The notes below the pieces were generated by a model that was not told where the DNA came from, ran no database searches, and saw only the letters and a program-made list of their open reading frames with translations. Positions 17,637-24,586 of a stretch of 64,000 bases of DNA are shown one piece after another. The DNA is from Microcoleus sp. AS-A8 (GTDB lineage: Bacteria > Cyanobacteriota > Cyanobacteriia > Cyanobacteriales > Coleofasciculaceae): NCBI GenBank assembly GCA_039962225.1, contig JAMPKV010000002.1:1-64000 (forward strand), read 5' to 3'. Numbering within the stretch: the first letter of the stretch is position 1; the number at the start of each line of letters is the position of its first letter. The position numbers and the translations under genes are program-made.

Positions 17637-18560
17637 ATGAAAAATGTTCTGTTGTCGGGTTTGTTGCTGTTGTTGCTACCTTTAGCCGCTTGCTCACCGC
17701 AAACAAGCGGAACTTCAGGGACAACAGGCACCCATGAGGCAAAAACAAAAACCCTCTCCATGAGTGCCATTCCCGACCAAGACCCGCAGAAGTTGCAGCG
17801 CAAGTATGATAAGTTAGCCACCTACCTGGAGCAAGAACTGGGTGTACCCGTGAAATATAAGCCTGTGACCGACTACAGCGCGGCGGTAACGGCGTTTAAG
17901 GTGGGGGATTTGGAGTTAGTTTGGTTTGGGGGATTGACCGGGGTTCAGGCGCGCTTGCAGGTACCAGGTGCAGAAGCGATCGCACAACGTGATGTAGACG
18001 AGCAATTCCACAGCTTGTTCATTGCTAATAAAAAGAGTGGACTAAAACCGTTTAAAGATATATCGGGACTAAAACAGCTCAAAGGCCATACCTTCACTTT
18101 TGGGAGTGATTCCTCGACATCTGGGCGTTTGATGCCTCAATACTTTCTCCAACAAGCTGGACTTAAGTTAGAAGATTTTAAGGGTCAAGCTGGTTTTTCG
18201 GGCGACCATGATAAGACCATTAAACTGGTTGAATCAGGTACCTATGACGTGGGTGCTGTAAATGAAAAAGTCTGGGAAAAACGAACTCAATCCAAAGAAG
18301 TAGACCTGAACAAAGTAGAAGTCCTTTGGCGAACGCCAGCTTACTATGATTATCACTGGGTGATTCATCCAAGTGTCAAAAAAAAATACGGCGAGGATTT
18401 TGCTAAGAAAGTGCAGAATGCCTTCTTCAAACTAGACCCAAAGGTACCAGAACACCAAGAAATTCTTGACCTCTTAGAAGCTAAAAAATTTATTCCCAGC
18501 CAAAATTCAAATTATGGTCAAATTGAGGCCGTTGGTCGGAAAATTGGCAAGATTAAGTAA
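17637..18560 (+). CDS. PhnD-like ABC transporter substrate-binding lipoprotein
   Basis: A periplasmic binding protein of the phosphate/phosphonate (PhnD) family, 307 residues. The signal peptide ends in the lipobox LAAC, so Cys19 is probably lipid-modified. Family landmarks are SAIPDQDPQKLQRKYDKLAT, YKPVTDYSAAVTAFKVGDLE, VWFGGLTGVQAR and FTFGSDSSTSGRLMPQY. The same subgroup is often annotated in cyanobacteria as a putative selenate transporter component; whether it binds phosphonate, phosphite or a selenium or sulfur oxyanion cannot be decided here. The ATPase and permease genes follow on the same strand. Confidence 0.88.
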   Translation: MKNVLLSGLLLLLLPLAACSPQTSGTSGTTGTHEAKTKTLSMSAIPDQDPQKLQRKYDKLATYLEQELGVPVKYKPVTDYSAAVTAFKVGDLELVWFGGLTGVQARLQVPGAEAIAQRDVDEQFHSLFIANKKSGLKPFKDISGLKQLKGHTFTFGSDSSTSGRLMPQYFLQQAGLKLEDFKGQAGFSGDHDKTIKLVESGTYDVGAVNEKVWEKRTQSKEVDLNKVEVLWRTPAYYDYHWVIHPSVKKKYGEDFAKKVQNAFFKLDPKVPEHQEILDLLEAKKFIPSQNSNYGQIEAVGRKIGKIK

Positions 18561-18726
18561 GGGCTAAGGCACTGATCTAGGGTGCATCCCAAAGTTGCAT
18601 AAATAGTTTTGAAAAGGGGCAAGAAAGACAAGGGGGACAAGGGGGATTGTACTGAGACCAAAAAAGATATTTGCAAAGATGGGATGCTCCCCTGAGCTAA
18701 AACAGGGGAATCACTTTAATGACTCA

Positions 18727-19509
18727 ATGGATCACCAACAAAACCGTCCAATTAACTCCATTGCACCGATTTTTGAACTGAAAAATGTTACCCATCGATT
18801 TGGTCACTTTCAATCGCTGACGGATATTAATTTAAAAATTCAGGCGGGAGAACGAGTTGCCCTCGTGGGTTCTAGTGGTGCAGGGAAAAGTACCCTGATT
18901 AGCTTACTCAATGGCACACTACTACCGACCTGCGGAGAAGTGTGGGTACTCGATCGCAATCTCGCTCAGCTTCGTCCGAAGTTGCAGCGTCAAGTTCAGC
19001 GTCAGATTGGCACAGTTTATCAACAATTTCATTTAGTAGAGAATCTGCGAGTGATTCACAATGTCAATGCTGGGCATTTAGGGCGTTGGTCGTTTTTAAA
19101 AGCTGCACTCTCCCTGATCTGGCCTCAGGAAGTCGAAACGGCGGCACAAGTTTTATCACAAGTGGGGATTCTGGATAAACTTTATTCTCGCACAGATCAA
19201 CTTTCTGGCGGTCAACAGCAACGAGTGGCGATCGCCCGTGTCCTCGTGCAAAACCCGACAGCTATCCTGGCGGATGAACCCATCTCTAGCCTTGACCCAG
19301 AGCGATCGCGTGAAATTATGGACTTATTGCGCCATCTGAGCGACGAAACGGGCAAAACGTTGGTTACGAGTCTCCATGCGATCGAATTTGCTCGGAGCCA
19401 TTACCAACGCATCATTGGTTTGCGGCAAGGACGTATTTTGTTTGATACATCGCCTGAATCCCTCTCCAAAGCGATGATTGAGGAATTATATAACCTGAAC
19501 TCTATCTAG
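18727..19509 (+). CDS. PhnC-like ABC transporter ATP-binding protein
   Basis: A single ABC ATPase domain of about 260 residues. Walker A is GSSGAGKST, the signature is LSGGQQQRVAIARVL, Walker B is AILADEPISSLDP and the H-loop His is in VTSLHAIEFA. It pairs with the upstream binding protein and the downstream fused permease. I preferred the ATG at 18727 (MDHQQN), because an in-frame ATG at 18679 lies in a repeat-like leader with a GGGATG..CATCCC theme. The permease gene follows only after a 497-base gap that holds a small RNA gene. Confidence 0.9.
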   Translation: MDHQQNRPINSIAPIFELKNVTHRFGHFQSLTDINLKIQAGERVALVGSSGAGKSTLISLLNGTLLPTCGEVWVLDRNLAQLRPKLQRQVQRQIGTVYQQFHLVENLRVIHNVNAGHLGRWSFLKAALSLIWPQEVETAAQVLSQVGILDKLYSRTDQLSGGQQQRVAIARVLVQNPTAILADEPISSLDPERSREIMDLLRHLSDETGKTLVTSLHAIEFARSHYQRIIGLRQGRILFDTSPESLSKAMIEELYNLNSI

Positions 19510-19670
19510 ATTGCCTTGGCGACTGCTAGATCACGGAAAACCGCTATAGGGCTTTATGAGAAAAATCGAAACTTTTCTTTACAAATATGATTGAAACCCT
19601 CATTCTTTCGTTGAAAAAGAAAGGGGTATCAGCCCCTATAACTTTTTTCCATAAATATGTAACACACCCC

Positions 19671-19700
19671 TTGACCTGTAAGACAGATCCGTATTACAGT
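19671..19700 (+). promoter_or_regulatory. Promoter of the small RNA gene
   Basis: TTGACC (19671-19676) and TACAGT (19695-19700) are spaced by 18 bases and point to a start near 19706. Just upstream is TATGTAACA, which on the other strand reads TGTTACATA. This resembles one half of an HLR1 (RpaB) site, but a second half at the usual spacing is not clear. Confidence 0.6.
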
Positions 19701-19705
19701 GTAAA

Positions 19706-19790
19706 CACTGCGGACTGTGTCCAATAGGTTTGAGTCTTCCTCGGGTAATCATGGGCTTTACCTCCTCCATTACCTGAGGCTTTTTTTTTG
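19706..19790 (+). ncRNA. Candidate small RNA, possibly PsrR1
   Basis: No reading frame explains this segment, yet it has a promoter and a strong intrinsic terminator: CCTCGGGTAAT (19739-19749) pairs with ATTACCTGAGG (19769-19779), followed by nine T. The 19-base loop contains CTTTACCTCCTCC, a CU-rich stretch complementary to Shine-Dalgarno sequences. The length (about 85 nt), the single-stranded 5' part and the CU-rich loop fit PsrR1, the cyanobacterial RNA that represses photosystem I and other photosynthesis mRNAs at their ribosome sites. That it is a small RNA is well supported; the PsrR1 identity is from memory of the family and is uncertain. Confidence 0.7.
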
Positions 19791-20006
19791 GGTGCCTAGT
19801 ACCGCGTCGCATCCGGTCAAAATCATTCCTGTGAGAGCCACGAAGGGTTCAGTCAAAATTCTTAGAGCGTATGGAGTTTAACCGCTTGTAAGCTGGTGAA
19901 TGATTTCTGCCAGCTTGTACTCGAAGCATCTAGATGCTAATGCCTGCCTGTAAAAGCCTGATCTACGCTACATCCCTGGCAGCAAGAGAGCGTCCTTGGG
20001 TTTGAT

Positions 20007-21755
20007 ATGAGAAATACTCCACAGCACCAATTCCCTGCCCTGCCACAGCGCCCTTCACCGCTCAACACCAGAAGCTTGTGGGCCTTGTTGCTTGTAGCCT
20101 CTTTGGTCTGGTCGTTACATGCAGCAGGTCTATTCGAGCGCGAGTTGCTCAACGTTGGGGGCTGGACTCTCGTCTGGCGCTTTCTCGTTGCTGCGACTCA
20201 TCCCGATCTTAGCCGGGAAATACTTCAGCTCACCTGGGATTCGACCCTCAAGACCTTAGCCTTCGCGGTGTGTGGCACCTTTTTTAGCGTGCTGATCGGT
20301 TTGGTGGGTGGCGTTCTGTCTTCTCAGGTATGGTGGCAGTCTGTGGCACGAGTCAGGAGTCAGGGTTCGGGCGTTAGGAGTCAAGCTCCCTGGCTAGGAA
20401 TCAGAGCAGTTCTAGCCCTTCCTAGAGCGATGCACGAATTAATTTGGGGATTATTTTTGATCAATATTTTGGGTCTCGACCCACTGGTGGCCGTTTTAGC
20501 GATCGCTATTCCCTTTGGTGCCATCACCGCTAAAGTCTTCTCAGAGATTTTAGACGAAACACCCCGCCAGCCCTTGATGGCACTCCTCAATAGTGGTGTC
20601 TCCCCCCTCAACGCTTTCACTTATAGCCTGATTCCCCAAGCCTTTCTGAATCTGCTTTCTTACAGTTTCTATCGGTTTGAGTGTTCCATTCGTTCTGCCG
20701 CCGTGCTGGGGATTATTGGGGCGGGAGGGCTGGGCTATCAAATTCTTCTCAGTCTCCAGTCCTTACACTACGAGCAAGTCTGGACTTTTCTGATTGCCCT
20801 GATTGTCTTAAACGGACTTACCGATTTCTGGAGTGCACTGCTGCGTCACCGCTTGGGAGCACCCAGTCGCCTAGATTTGAACGTTCTAAATTTCAAGAAA
20901 GGTAACAAGCCTGATTACCAGAGTGATTTAGTCGTCAGAGGGTCGTTTCTGGGTATGGTTGTTTTAATTATTTTCTCCTTCTGGTACGTGCAAGCCGACT
21001 TCTCTAAACTCTGGGCACCCAGAACCGCCGAACTTTTAGCAGGAGTGGTTCGGGATATTTTCCCACCGGATGGGAGTCAGTTGAGTCAGCTATTCACGCT
21101 TTCGCTGCAAACCCTGGCTATGTCTATTCTGGCGATGGCTGGGGCTGGGTTAGGGGGTATTGTATTTTCTTTTGCGGCTGCTCATAACTTCTTGTTGCCC
21201 GGAGGGATTTTTGATACTGGCAACAATTCCCCCCGAAGTTCGGGCGGTTGGGGGGGTCAAAATCAGTGGTGGGGAACCGTTGTACTGATTTTTACCCGCT
21301 TCCTGCTACTGGTGGCGCGTGCTGTGCCCGAACCGATTTGGGCGTTATTGTTTCTGTTTGTCCTGTTTCCAGGGATTTTGCCGGGAGCGATCGCACTTGC
21401 CTTACACAACTTCGGTATCCTAGGGCGTCTCATGGCAGAAGTGACGGAAAATCTGGATGAACGTCCGTTGCGATCGCTCAAAGCTTTGGGTGCAACTCGT
21501 GCACAAGTCTTTCTCTATGGCGTCTTACCTGTGACTCTCCCCCGTTTTATCGCTTACATCCTCTACCGTTGGGAAGTCTGTATCCGCGCTACCGTGATTG
21601 TCGGGTTGGTCGGCGCTGGAGGATTAGGTCGTCTGCTCACAGAGCAACTAAGTAGTTTTGATTACCAAGGTCTTCTCACCACCTTAATTGTTTTTCTCGC
21701 ACTCACCTTTGGAGTTGACCTAATCAGTGCTTCGGTAAGACGAGCGTTAAGGTAA
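20007..21755 (+). CDS. Fused double permease of a PhnE-like ABC transporter
   Basis: At 582 residues this is twice the usual PhnE length and contains two homologous permease halves. Each ends in the same block: LMALLNSGVSPLNAFTYSLI..IRSAAVLGIIGAGGLGYQI (about 190-245) and LRSLKALGATRAQVFLYGVL..IRATVIVGLVGAGGLGRLL (about 490-545), which hold the EAA loop that touches the ATPase. Many hydrophobic segments indicate a membrane protein. Two low-complexity inserts look repeat-derived: RVRSQGSGVRSQ near residue 115 and NSPRSSGGWGGQ near 408. It completes the transporter with the genes at 17637 and 18727. Confidence 0.9.
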   Translation: MRNTPQHQFPALPQRPSPLNTRSLWALLLVASLVWSLHAAGLFERELLNVGGWTLVWRFLVAATHPDLSREILQLTWDSTLKTLAFAVCGTFFSVLIGLVGGVLSSQVWWQSVARVRSQGSGVRSQAPWLGIRAVLALPRAMHELIWGLFLINILGLDPLVAVLAIAIPFGAITAKVFSEILDETPRQPLMALLNSGVSPLNAFTYSLIPQAFLNLLSYSFYRFECSIRSAAVLGIIGAGGLGYQILLSLQSLHYEQVWTFLIALIVLNGLTDFWSALLRHRLGAPSRLDLNVLNFKKGNKPDYQSDLVVRGSFLGMVVLIIFSFWYVQADFSKLWAPRTAELLAGVVRDIFPPDGSQLSQLFTLSLQTLAMSILAMAGAGLGGIVFSFAAAHNFLLPGGIFDTGNNSPRSSGGWGGQNQWWGTVVLIFTRFLLLVARAVPEPIWALLFLFVLFPGILPGAIALALHNFGILGRLMAEVTENLDERPLRSLKALGATRAQVFLYGVLPVTLPRFIAYILYRWEVCIRATVIVGLVGAGGLGRLLTEQLSSFDYQGLLTTLIVFLALTFGVDLISASVRRALR

Positions 21756-21818
21756 TAGACCTCTGTTAACTTAGTGACCAGAGAGCATAAAACACTTATA
21801 GAATGAAATGACCGTAAA

Positions 21819-21856
21819 ACCCACGGATGAGAGCGACGCGGAGTCGTGGGAGTGCC
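21819..21856. repeat. Solo IS200/IS605-type end hairpin
   Basis: CCCACG (21819-21824) pairs with CGTGGG (21844-21849), followed by AGTGCCAAC. The CGTGGGAGTG(T/C)CAAC edge resembles the right end of tnpB-carrying elements in cyanobacteria. No transposase gene is attached. It lies 70 bases before the nuclease-ParA gene. Confidence 0.45.
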
Positions 21857-21922
21857 AACTAAGTTGCTATAGTTACTTTGAAATACATCCTTGTTTGAAC
21901 CTAAACCCTGAACATTGCTTTT

Positions 21923-23065
21923 ATGCCACCATCTTCCGAGGCATCCTTTACTAAAGACTTCGTCCACTTTAAGCAGCATGTGGTCAAACTTTTCCAAACA
22001 GAAGGGTGGACGGTTGAAATCGTAAACCACGCTAGTTACGATTTGATTGTCAAAAAAGATAACCAACTGGGTGCTGTCCAGGTTAAATGGTTAAAAAGTC
22101 CTGTCCAAAAGCCGCAGCTTTCAAAATTTGTTGATTTTTTAGACACTAACGCGGGTCAAAAATTTAATCAGGGCTTTTTTATCACGACACAGGGTTATGG
22201 TGGGTCAGCACGCGCTTTAATCAGAAGTTGGGGACAGAATCCTAAACTCCTGTGTGGGATTGTTAGTCAAAGTGAAATTATTTGGATTAACGATAATCCA
22301 GATAGGTCTGCACCTGAACCGCCCAAGCCCGACAAGATTTATTTTGGTGTTTTTACCTGCAAAGGTGGAGTCGGAAAAACCACTGTCGCTGCCCATTTAG
22401 CTGGAGCATTTGCGCTTCAAGGATTCAATGTAGCGCTGGTGGATTTAGACCCGGAAAAAAATCTTCAGAAGTTGATTGGGGATGGCGTTTATCTTCCTAA
22501 ACCCCAAAGTGTGGGTGAGAGTATAGAAGTTTATGATAAGGAAGCTTGGGACGAAGATGCCGCCCGTGACAGCAAAATAGTGATTTGTGATTGCTCACCC
22601 GCCTTCGATCGCAATCCCGAAGAGTTAGTCAAGAAGTTCGACTATTGTATTATTCCCACAACGTTTAATCCGTTGGGAATTAATAAGCACGGTCAGGTGA
22701 TTAAAGATACGGTTACAGATATCCGAAAAGTTAACACGAATGCTCACCTTTTTGTGTTAATTAATAACTTTAGACCGACAACTAAGCGGCAAATGCAGAT
22801 TCTTAAGGGTGTTTTTTTCGACGCTTTTGCAGACATAAAAGCCATGGATGAAAAATTCCACTGCATTGAACCGGAACAAGTCTGTATTCGCTCTAGCGAT
22901 CAACTTTATTATTGGGGCATTCATTGTCTGGAAAACCCAGAAGTACCGCGAAGTGAGTTAGCCTTCAAACTGATTGGAGGTAAGTGTAAGCCACGGGAAG
23001 ATTTTATTGATTTAGCAGATTATATTGAACGAGTCGCTGGCTTAGGAATTTTGCGGCATGAATAA
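21923..23065 (+). CDS. Fusion of an Mrr-like nuclease domain with a ParA/MinD ATPase
   Basis: The 380-residue protein has two parts. Residues about 10-125 look like a restriction-endonuclease fold (Mrr_cat type): YDLIVKKDNQLGAVQVKWLK gives a D-x(n)-(Q/E)xK catalytic pattern, followed by FVDFLDTNAGQKFNQGFFIT and GGSARALIRSW. Residues about 140-380 are a ParA-type ATPase with the deviant Walker A FTCKGGVGKTTVAAHLAG, switch I region LVDLDPEKN and a Walker B-like IVICDCSPAFDRN. No partner ParB gene lies next to it. The gene follows a solo insertion-sequence end and precedes a small helix protein. A DNA-defence or DNA-segregation role is inference. The start is the ATG at 21923. Confidence 0.85.
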   Translation: MPPSSEASFTKDFVHFKQHVVKLFQTEGWTVEIVNHASYDLIVKKDNQLGAVQVKWLKSPVQKPQLSKFVDFLDTNAGQKFNQGFFITTQGYGGSARALIRSWGQNPKLLCGIVSQSEIIWINDNPDRSAPEPPKPDKIYFGVFTCKGGVGKTTVAAHLAGAFALQGFNVALVDLDPEKNLQKLIGDGVYLPKPQSVGESIEVYDKEAWDEDAARDSKIVICDCSPAFDRNPEELVKKFDYCIIPTTFNPLGINKHGQVIKDTVTDIRKVNTNAHLFVLINNFRPTTKRQMQILKGVFFDAFADIKAMDEKFHCIEPEQVCIRSSDQLYYWGIHCLENPEVPRSELAFKLIGGKCKPREDFIDLADYIERVAGLGILRHE

Positions 23066-23393
23066 GATGGATTCTACCCCCTAACTCCCCTGATTCATGG
23101 GGGGAGCCAAAAAAGTATTTGTAGCCAGCATTTAGCAAATTGGTATAAGTGTTTACATAAGGAACACTTTCTAGCTGAGCAACGTCTCATTAGAGGCGCT
23201 GCTCTTCTAAGTTAACTACAATAAAGAACAATCGCTTTTGCCGATGTGCGTTTGCGCCCCAGCTTTAGTGAGAACATGGTGCGTAAGCAGCAAAGCGCAA
23301 TCGCTTGGACAGAGCTAAAATACGAGACGATACTCTTGAGGGTGCTATCGCCGTGATGCCCTATTGACTACGGAGACCAAAAGAGTGAGTTCA

Positions 23394-23618
23394 ATGAATT
23401 TAACCAAGACACGCTACGAAGTTTCTCTCAGCCCAGAGGCATGGGATGGAGTTGAAACCATTGCCAGAAAGTTTAATCTATCGGTGTCTGAGCTTTTTGA
23501 GCAAGTTGGCTGTGGACTTCTGGCGATTGTTGACCCTGAAGACTTAGAAGACATTGAAGATTTTCTGGATGTGCAGATGTCATTGGAAGCCGAACCCGTT
23601 CTCGAAAGCCAAGAGTAA
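23394..23618 (+). CDS. Small ribbon-helix-helix-like protein
   Basis: The 74-residue product reads TRYEVSLSPEAWDGVETIAR then KFNLSVSELFEQVGCGLLAI and has an acidic tail. A short strand followed by two helices, with SVSE at the turn, is the layout of ribbon-helix-helix DNA-binding proteins such as antitoxins. GAGTGAG precedes the ATG at 23394; a TTG at 23364 is an alternative start. It is 330 bases downstream of the nuclease-ParA gene on the same strand. No toxin gene follows it. Confidence 0.55.
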   Translation: MNLTKTRYEVSLSPEAWDGVETIARKFNLSVSELFEQVGCGLLAIVDPEDLEDIEDFLDVQMSLEAEPVLESQE

Positions 23619-23627
23619 ATTCCAGGC

Positions 23628-23653
23628 GGTGCGTTACACTGCGTTAACGCACC
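23628..23653. repeat. Intergenic palindromic repeat
   Basis: GGTGCGTTA (23628-23636) pairs with TAACGCACC (23645-23653). GGTGCGTTA..TAACGCACC is a familiar intergenic repeat in cyanobacteria. It lies between converging genes and may help to end transcription. Confidence 0.6.
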
Positions 23654-23668
23654 CGACAGATTGCCGAT

Positions 23669-24586
23669 TTACTTTTTGTAAATCAAGAAGACTGACCCAA
23701 CAGGATGAGTATTTTCCACATAAATTTTATTATCAAAAAAAAGACCTGTAGAAAATCCGCCATCAAACAACATCCCGTCTTGAATGTTGCCTAAACAGTA
23801 ATTTGAAGCAATTCCTTCAAGAACATCATCAAACATCGATGGATAAAGGGATTGCTTCAAATTGGCGTTGTTGACTAACAAAATTACATATCCTTTAGAA
23901 GTCGTGGCTACCAGAGAGCGACTTGTTTCACCAGCACAGACATAGTCACCTAAGTCCGGGCAAATATTTTTAAATTTTCCATTCTGATAAAATCTTCCAT
24001 TTCCACCGACTACGTTGTAATTCAGTAGTTCCTCGTTTCTTTTGCCAATTTGGATCGTAGCTGTTCGCTTTTGAGGCTTACCGCCTGAAATCCCAAAAGA
24101 AGACCGCTTATCTTTAAATTTACCTGAATATTCCACTCCTTTAGAAATATTCAGTCCTTGGGGCTGATTATCAACCCCGATGTAATCAGCATTAATGGCA
24201 GCAATTGGTGGTTTACCATTCAGGGTTGAATTCTCATCACTGATGAGTTCAGAAAACCGTTTGGAGATATATTTTTGACGGGTTTTACCGTCATCATTTT
24301 TCAGATAGAGTTTATGAGATAGACCCACATTCACTTTAAAATCTAGGTCTTTAGATTTTGGGTCAAAAATAATAACGTAATTGACCCCCTGCTCATCACC
24401 ATTACCCTTATTATCAGTTGCGGTCAGCTCAATATTTTTAATGATTGGGCACTCTTGAATTTTGGCTCTATTGAGTGATAGTAAGTTTCTTAGGCTTAAT
24501 TTTGACCCCTCTCCCCAACCAGAATATAGTTTAACTAAAATAGCTAAAACGATGGTTAATAAAAATATTCTTTCTTGTACCTGCAT
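23669..24586 (-). CDS. Phosphodiester glycosidase (NAGPA-domain) family protein
   Basis: This 305-residue protein has an N-terminal membrane or signal segment (IFLLTIVLAILVKLYSG) and a NAGPA-type domain. Landmarks are PPIAAINADYIGVDNQPQGL, GKPQKRTATIQIGKRNEE, YVCAGETSRSLVATTSKGYV and DGMLFDGGFSTGLFFDNK. The family is named after the human uncovering enzyme that removes GlcNAc from mannose-6-phosphate; bacterial members are exported and act on cell-surface glycans or spores, with mostly unknown substrates. The typical TxxGxxxxxxLLxxDGGxS pattern is only partly kept here. It is probably monocistronic and converges on the small helix gene. Confidence 0.75.
   Translation of the reverse strand: MQVQERIFLLTIVLAILVKLYSGWGEGSKLSLRNLLSLNRAKIQECPIIKNIELTATDNKGNGDEQGVNYVIIFDPKSKDLDFKVNVGLSHKLYLKNDDGKTRQKYISKRFSELISDENSTLNGKPPIAAINADYIGVDNQPQGLNISKGVEYSGKFKDKRSSFGISGGKPQKRTATIQIGKRNEELLNYNVVGGNGRFYQNGKFKNICPDLGDYVCAGETSRSLVATTSKGYVILLVNNANLKQSLYPSMFDDVLEGIASNYCLGNIQDGMLFDGGFSTGLFFDNKIYVENTHPVGSVFLIYKK

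Follow-up and report, generated by a model that had tools for sequence, protein, structure and literature searches.

A Mrr-type nuclease domain fused to a ParA-type ATPase in cyanobacteria, with a possible role in defence

Closest described systems

Mrr_cat, or Mrr-type, domains, as in AF1548 (PDB 1y88) and the nuclease domains of MspJI and AspBHI, are the closest known relatives of the N-terminal half of the protein described here, and ParF/ParA of plasmid TP228 (PDB 4dzz and 5u1g) is that of its C-terminal half. Unlike AF1548, MspJI, and AspBHI, this protein shows no DNA-recognition domain in Pfam, is joined to a ParA ATPase and, in the copy that we started from, carries a lysine in helix 1. 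It differs from the TP228 protein in its nuclease N terminus, its family-specific C terminus, and the lack of a ParB-like partner in the neighbourhoods compared. It also scores far below the cut-off of the NCBIfam model for ParA partition proteins, NF041546 (61.8 versus 180 bits).

ParA-type ATPases have been linked to biological conflicts before. According to the available part of PMC3710099, HEPN domains and the ParA/Soj-HEPN pair are assigned to conflict systems, the pairs are postulated to be toxin-antitoxin systems, and Swt1-type HEPN domains occur in restriction-type contexts. The MAE_18760 HEPN and ParA/Soj pairs of that survey resemble the fusion in that a ParA-type ATPase is proposed to control a conflict nuclease, whereas they consist of two genes and an RNase of another fold, and the fusion places a DNase fold in one polypeptide. 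A ParA-family (MinD/ParA) domain is likewise found in bacterial conflict proteins of the VMAP type; the excerpted text of PMC7159879 describes these domains as predicted to be inactive, while the ATPase motifs of the fusion are intact. Among other sources available in part, PMC12704722 surveys ParB-fold fusions and PMC13190303 concerns a membrane nuclease unrelated to the fusion. Among the papers listed in searches of the open-access literature, none was recognised as describing a Mrr::ParA fusion.

Two domains in one polypeptide

The fusion lies in the window, i.e., the whole stretch of 64,000 nucleotides from Microcoleus sp. AS-A8 that was analysed (assembly GCA_039962225.1, contig JAMPKV010000002.1). 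The first-pass annotation had described a single frame with the motifs YDLIVKKD, GAVQVKWLK, and KGGVGKTT, all of which were found as described (Table 1). Its nuclease-like N terminus was borne out by a Mrr_cat match (PF04471, 43.0 bits, cut-off 21) and by comparison of the predicted structure with solved structures, which gave a PD-(D/E)XK core fold with matches to Hjc and EndoMS as well as to restriction enzymes. The Asp and the (D/E/Q)xK motif of these nucleases are present. E. coli-type Mrr has an N-terminal Mrr_N winged-helix domain; in the fusion the nuclease domain itself is N-terminal, and Mrr_N does not appear in the list of 17 Pfam families matched up to E 1. The ParA-type assignment of the C half also held, with a match to CbiA (PF01656, 57.1 bits, cut-off 25.4, aa 146-294) and plasmid ParF as the best match of the predicted structure; the deviant Walker A, the Walker B, and the fold of ParA/MinD ATPases are all present. 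This half ends in a conserved, family-specific C terminus, and the full-length structure model is weak at aa 328-355, a region that includes conserved C-terminal residues. Profile matches and structure predictions confirm that a Mrr-type PD-(D/E)XK domain and a ParA/ParF-type ATPase are joined in one polypeptide. No PADLOC model matched the whole protein (four partial matches, the best with 4.9e-6 over aa 139-178), and the single Rfam match over positions 20500-24000 was far below its gathering score.

Table 1. Features of the fusion locus (positions in the window)
Feature	Coordinates	Strand	Remarks
Mrr-type nuclease::ParA-type ATPase fusion gene	21923..23065	+	380 aa, one uninterrupted frame
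Mrr_cat / PD-(D/E)XK domain	21965..22228	+	aa 15-102; D40, Q53, K55 kept; K17 at helix-1 Glu position
ParA/ParF-like ATPase half	22337..23050	+	aa 139-376; K147/K152 (deviant Walker A), D174, D176, D223
59-bp stretch with inverted repeat (seen by eye)	21800..21858		incidental to fusion
Small uncharacterised gene	23394..23618	+	74 aa from ATG; incidental to fusion

Conservation and selection

Conservation was counted in a 40-row alignment of the Mrr::ParA copies, taking as denominator the rows with a residue at the position. The nuclease motif is kept (D40 in 38/39, Q53 in 37/39, K55 in 39/39), and so is that of the ATPase (K147 in 39/39; K152, D174, D176, and D223 each in 40/40). The C-half residues R323, Y330, W331, G332, and D360 are each present in all 40 rows. 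Q53 is replaced by H in L207 and L208, and D40 by G in L015. A glutamate in helix 1 is a feature of PD-(D/E)XK nucleases of the Mrr/Hjc type. At this position (17), it occurs in 33 of 38 copies and is lost in five, which have K (the window, L207, and L208), R (L015), or Q (L253). Since a same-genus copy 95.5% identical to that of the window (L204) retains the glutamate, the change to lysine in the window is recent, and it may weaken catalysis by this copy.

In none of the pairs with usable dS (20/21 chosen pairs for each half) did dN/dS (NG86) reach 0.42 in the N half or exceed 0.13 in the C half; many dS values are near or above 1, so that single ratios are rough. Judged from these comparisons, both halves are conserved and under purifying selection. 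A chance frame or an assembly error, the latter raised by the first-pass annotation itself, is ruled out by the 40 copies, the full-length homologues, and the dN/dS ratios.

Distribution and inheritance

The window protein (E 1e-15) matched in 11 of the 386 genomes of a phylum sample and alignment A1 (E 1e-20) in 22 of the 243 genomes of an order sample. With the L212 protein as query, 30 of 388 order genomes matched at E 1e-75, a threshold that loses some known carriers, including the window's own genome. These three samples overlap; merged, they hold 40 distinct copies in 36 genomes. Two copies each are found in G005, G306, G382, and G453, and two copies are imperfect, one having an internal stop (G488) and the other beginning at a contig end (L238 in G718). 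The fusion had been called rare, which holds for the Mrr type in these samples but not for nuclease::ParA fusions as a kind, since these recur in cyanobacteria (see below).

Outside cyanobacteria, matches at E 1e-14 were found in 0/151, 1/150, and 0/198 genomes of three samples that we take from locus titles and taxonomy to be Chloroflexota, Proteobacteria, and Desulfobacterota. These searches had no positive control, so their empty results carry no weight by themselves. The lone match covers aa 142-253 only, in the ATPase part. Most matches in a broad contig scan and in a viral scan reflected the Walker A pattern, and each listed 80 loci without one that matched over most of the query. Viral contigs scanned with a C-terminal fragment (149 aa) gave four pattern matches and no relatives. 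A plasmid or phage origin was rejected: 182 plasmid and 90 phage records match, none of them covering 80% of the query.

Trees were built for the full-length proteins (39 rows, without L211) and for each half (38 rows, without L211 and L238); many of their branches are weak, and L015 forms a long one. Subfamily A (28 rows) clusters largely by host family, and family f3 falls into two parts in the full-length tree. The trees of the two halves show an identical split of 28 rows from the other 10 and differ in finer order. The grouping by host family suggests that inheritance was mostly vertical, with loss. The patchy distribution is the one point in favour of the accessory locus suggested earlier. 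Several copies occur on contigs between 2.6 and 8.6 Mb long, the grouping in the tree is largely that of the host families, and the insertion-sequence-like stretch and the small downstream gene are incidental to the fusion.

Genomic surroundings

We compared the neighbourhood in the window with 25 others, several of them ended by contig ends. The genes around the fusion vary, and those flanking it look housekeeping-like. A divergent gene for a calcineurin-like phosphoesterase adjoins it in L020-L024 (Pfam on the L020 copy), and copies of subfamily B adjoin a large chlH-like gene, named by eye, in L029, L031, L231, and L232. The permease gene upstream of the fusion (20007-21755) has the same position in G417 and G721, of the window's family, but no counterpart was found next to the copies of G544, G537, and G440. 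A search of 20 family genomes located the flanking gene at 23669-24586 in four. Two of these have the fusion at the same place; in the remaining two, G529 and G544, its vicinity contains none of the four other window genes tried, and no empty site for the fusion could be demonstrated through this gene among the 20 genomes.

Fifty-five adjacent or nearby proteins chosen for scanning showed no recurrent defence neighbour. Each Pfam family was matched by at most 5 of them, and no DNA methyltransferase was recognised in adjacent genes, both among the matches listed (25 of 59 families); PADLOC matches were scattered, with at most 3 proteins per model. Neither a ParB-like partner (two partner queries, E 1e-3) nor a recurring antitoxin-like partner was found in the window and the 25 other neighbourhoods.

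Other fusions of nucleases with ParA

A second type of fusion, HSDR_N-type::ParA, is represented by L215, in which Pfam recognises ParA and HSDR_N_2 (28.2 bits, cut-off 25); among six further members scanned, four exceed the cut-off of HSDR_N_2 and two (L268 and L283) that of HSDR_N. At E 1e-55, 29 of 194 phylum genomes match this type, some without the N-terminal domain. This domain is present in 19 of the 20 loci fetched (absent in L282), and 11 more matched places, several matching the ATPase part only, were left unfetched. A ParB-like partner lies downstream in 21/21 loci (the 20 fetched plus L215), and ParB_N was recognised by Pfam in one partner scanned. The set with the N-terminal domain comprises L264-L281, L283, and L215, L264 being the query's own locus. 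Like the Mrr type, these cassettes have a PD-(D/E)XK-type N terminus on a ParA ATPase; they differ in the nuclease family, in the ParB_N-type partner present in each locus read and found beside none of the Mrr-type copies compared, and in the ParA half, which falls in another clade. In a ParA tree of 19 rows with a weak backbone, the Mrr type (100/100) and the HSDR type (98/97) form separate clades, suggesting that the two fusions likely arose by separate events.

The window's own genome also encodes a HEPN_Swt1::ParA protein (L002:1201-2451 and L289:9348-11160, G000:C15; HEPN_Swt1 with 94.9 bits, cut-off 27.5). Used as a query, it matched in 4 of 244 genomes at E 1e-25, over its full length only in the window's genome. 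An overlapping 194-aa partner gene with no assigned family lies downstream of HEPN_Swt1::ParA. In G030 (L297:2291-5499), a ParA 49% identical to that of HEPN_Swt1::ParA carries a PD-(D/E)XK-like N terminus below the Pfam cut-offs (HSDR_N_2 19.9 versus 25), and a 52%-identical partner gene and a N6_N4_Mtase DNA methylase gene stand side by side at this locus. The arrangement resembles a ParA-based restriction-modification cassette. Finally, a 554-aa protein of G412 (L212:1009-2670) combines Mrr_cat, CbiA, and HEPN_Swt1 (126.1 bits), the last carrying the RNKWAH (Rx4H) motif; it is alone in this three-part arrangement among the 40 Mrr::ParA copies. As far as domain assignments tell, nuclease::ParA fusions recur in cyanobacteria as a wider pattern with interchangeable nuclease domains, one that may reflect a design for genome defence.

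Proposed function

We give an even chance to the fusion being a solitary, chromosomal, ATP-gated DNase that most likely cuts foreign DNA, from phages or plasmids. By analogy with known ParA and PD-(D/E)XK enzymes, ATP binding would lead to dimerisation and DNA binding by the ParA half, the two nuclease domains of the dimer would then be close enough to cut both strands, and ATP hydrolysis would release the dimer. The protein would thus be one of a wider cyanobacterial set of ParA fusions whose nuclease domains are interchangeable. Motif conservation, fold matches, and purifying selection count for an ATP-gated DNase, and the loss of catalytic residues (helix-1 Glu in five copies, Q53 in two, and D40 in one) counts against an active one. 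A role in conflict is favoured by the patchy distribution and by the exchange of one nuclease domain for another. A mobile defence gene is made less likely by the mostly vertical inheritance and by the lack of recurrent defence genes nearby, and the housekeeping-like flanking genes and the host-family tree are also unlike those of such a gene; the lack of any plasmid or phage record at 80% coverage and of a PADLOC whole-protein match weighs against the defence reading. We put the odds of a role in defence at roughly even; its main rivals are repair and positioning.

The matches to Hjc and EndoMS, the solitary position among housekeeping-like genes, the tree that largely follows host families, and the purifying selection would also fit a nuclease of DNA repair or recombination (like Hjc, EndoMS, or AF1548) with ParA as its ATP switch, i.e., an optional housekeeping factor unconnected with defence. 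We consider this unlikely, since the fusion is absent from most relatives (22 of 243 order genomes carry it) and one member (L212) is fused to HEPN_Swt1, an RNase-type conflict domain in the available part of PMC3710099. A similarly low probability attaches to a ParA-type positioning ATPase in which the nuclease-derived domain only holds DNA, cleavage being lost or irrelevant. The ATPase motifs present in 40/40 rows, set against the loss of the helix-1 Glu in 5/38 (the window included) and of D40 in 1/39, agree with it, as does the predicted structural resemblance of the C half to plasmid ParF; however, D40, Q53, and K55 are retained in nearly all copies, and positioning would have to do without the ParB-like partner that was not found in the 26 neighbourhoods at E 1e-3 with two queries. 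Least probable, by analogy, is a suicide effector whose host-toxic nuclease half would be held off by the ParA half until infection or stress. The same has been postulated for the ParA/Soj-HEPN dyad (PMC3710099, in part), and L212 has a HEPN_Swt1 with the Rx4H motif, but HEPN occurs in just 1 of the 40 copies and no antitoxin-like partner recurs beside the fusion.

Should the nuclease be gated by the ATPase cycle, as in the foreign-DNA DNase that we favour, a motor for DNA partition would have become a switch that controls DNA cleavage. A bolder and rather doubtful extension is that ParA serves cyanobacteria as a plug-in control for nucleases, onto which Mrr, HSDR_N, other PD-(D/E)XK-like, and HEPN domains were swapped, with or without a ParB-like partner, and whose ATP-driven dimerisation on DNA would license the cutting of replicons without host identity marks. 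Were this true, partition machinery would have given rise to a class of immunity in which the Mrr type is the branch without a partner. Because ParA has been joined repeatedly to unrelated nucleases, and HEPN has been exchanged for a PD-(D/E)XK-like domain beside a related partner gene, the gating of a nuclease by the ATPase cycle is open to direct tests in E. coli and in laboratory cyanobacteria.

Minor elements near the fusion

The solo insertion-sequence end reported in front of the fusion corresponds to the 59-bp stretch of Table 1, in which an inverted repeat is present. An 81-bp query over it matched only itself in the genome (E 1e-3), with no second copy, and the insertion-sequence label is therefore unproven. 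The stretch is missing from a same-genus relative (G417), though both have the fusion. The ribbon-helix-helix label suggested for the gene downstream could not be upheld, since this small gene has no family match above cut-off and no credible solved relative (best E 0.16); G417 is the one genome among the 25 other neighbourhoods compared in which it was found beside the fusion.

Genes resembling those of phosphonate-type ABC transporters, identified by eye, lie beside the fusions of the window (17637-21755) and of G531 (L226:6107-11568), which belong to two different subfamilies. In G440, an RRXRR/IscB-like gene, also named by eye, lies about 1.5 kb upstream of the fusion copy (L224:4137-5459), and RRXRR gave one match among the 55 scanned neighbour proteins.
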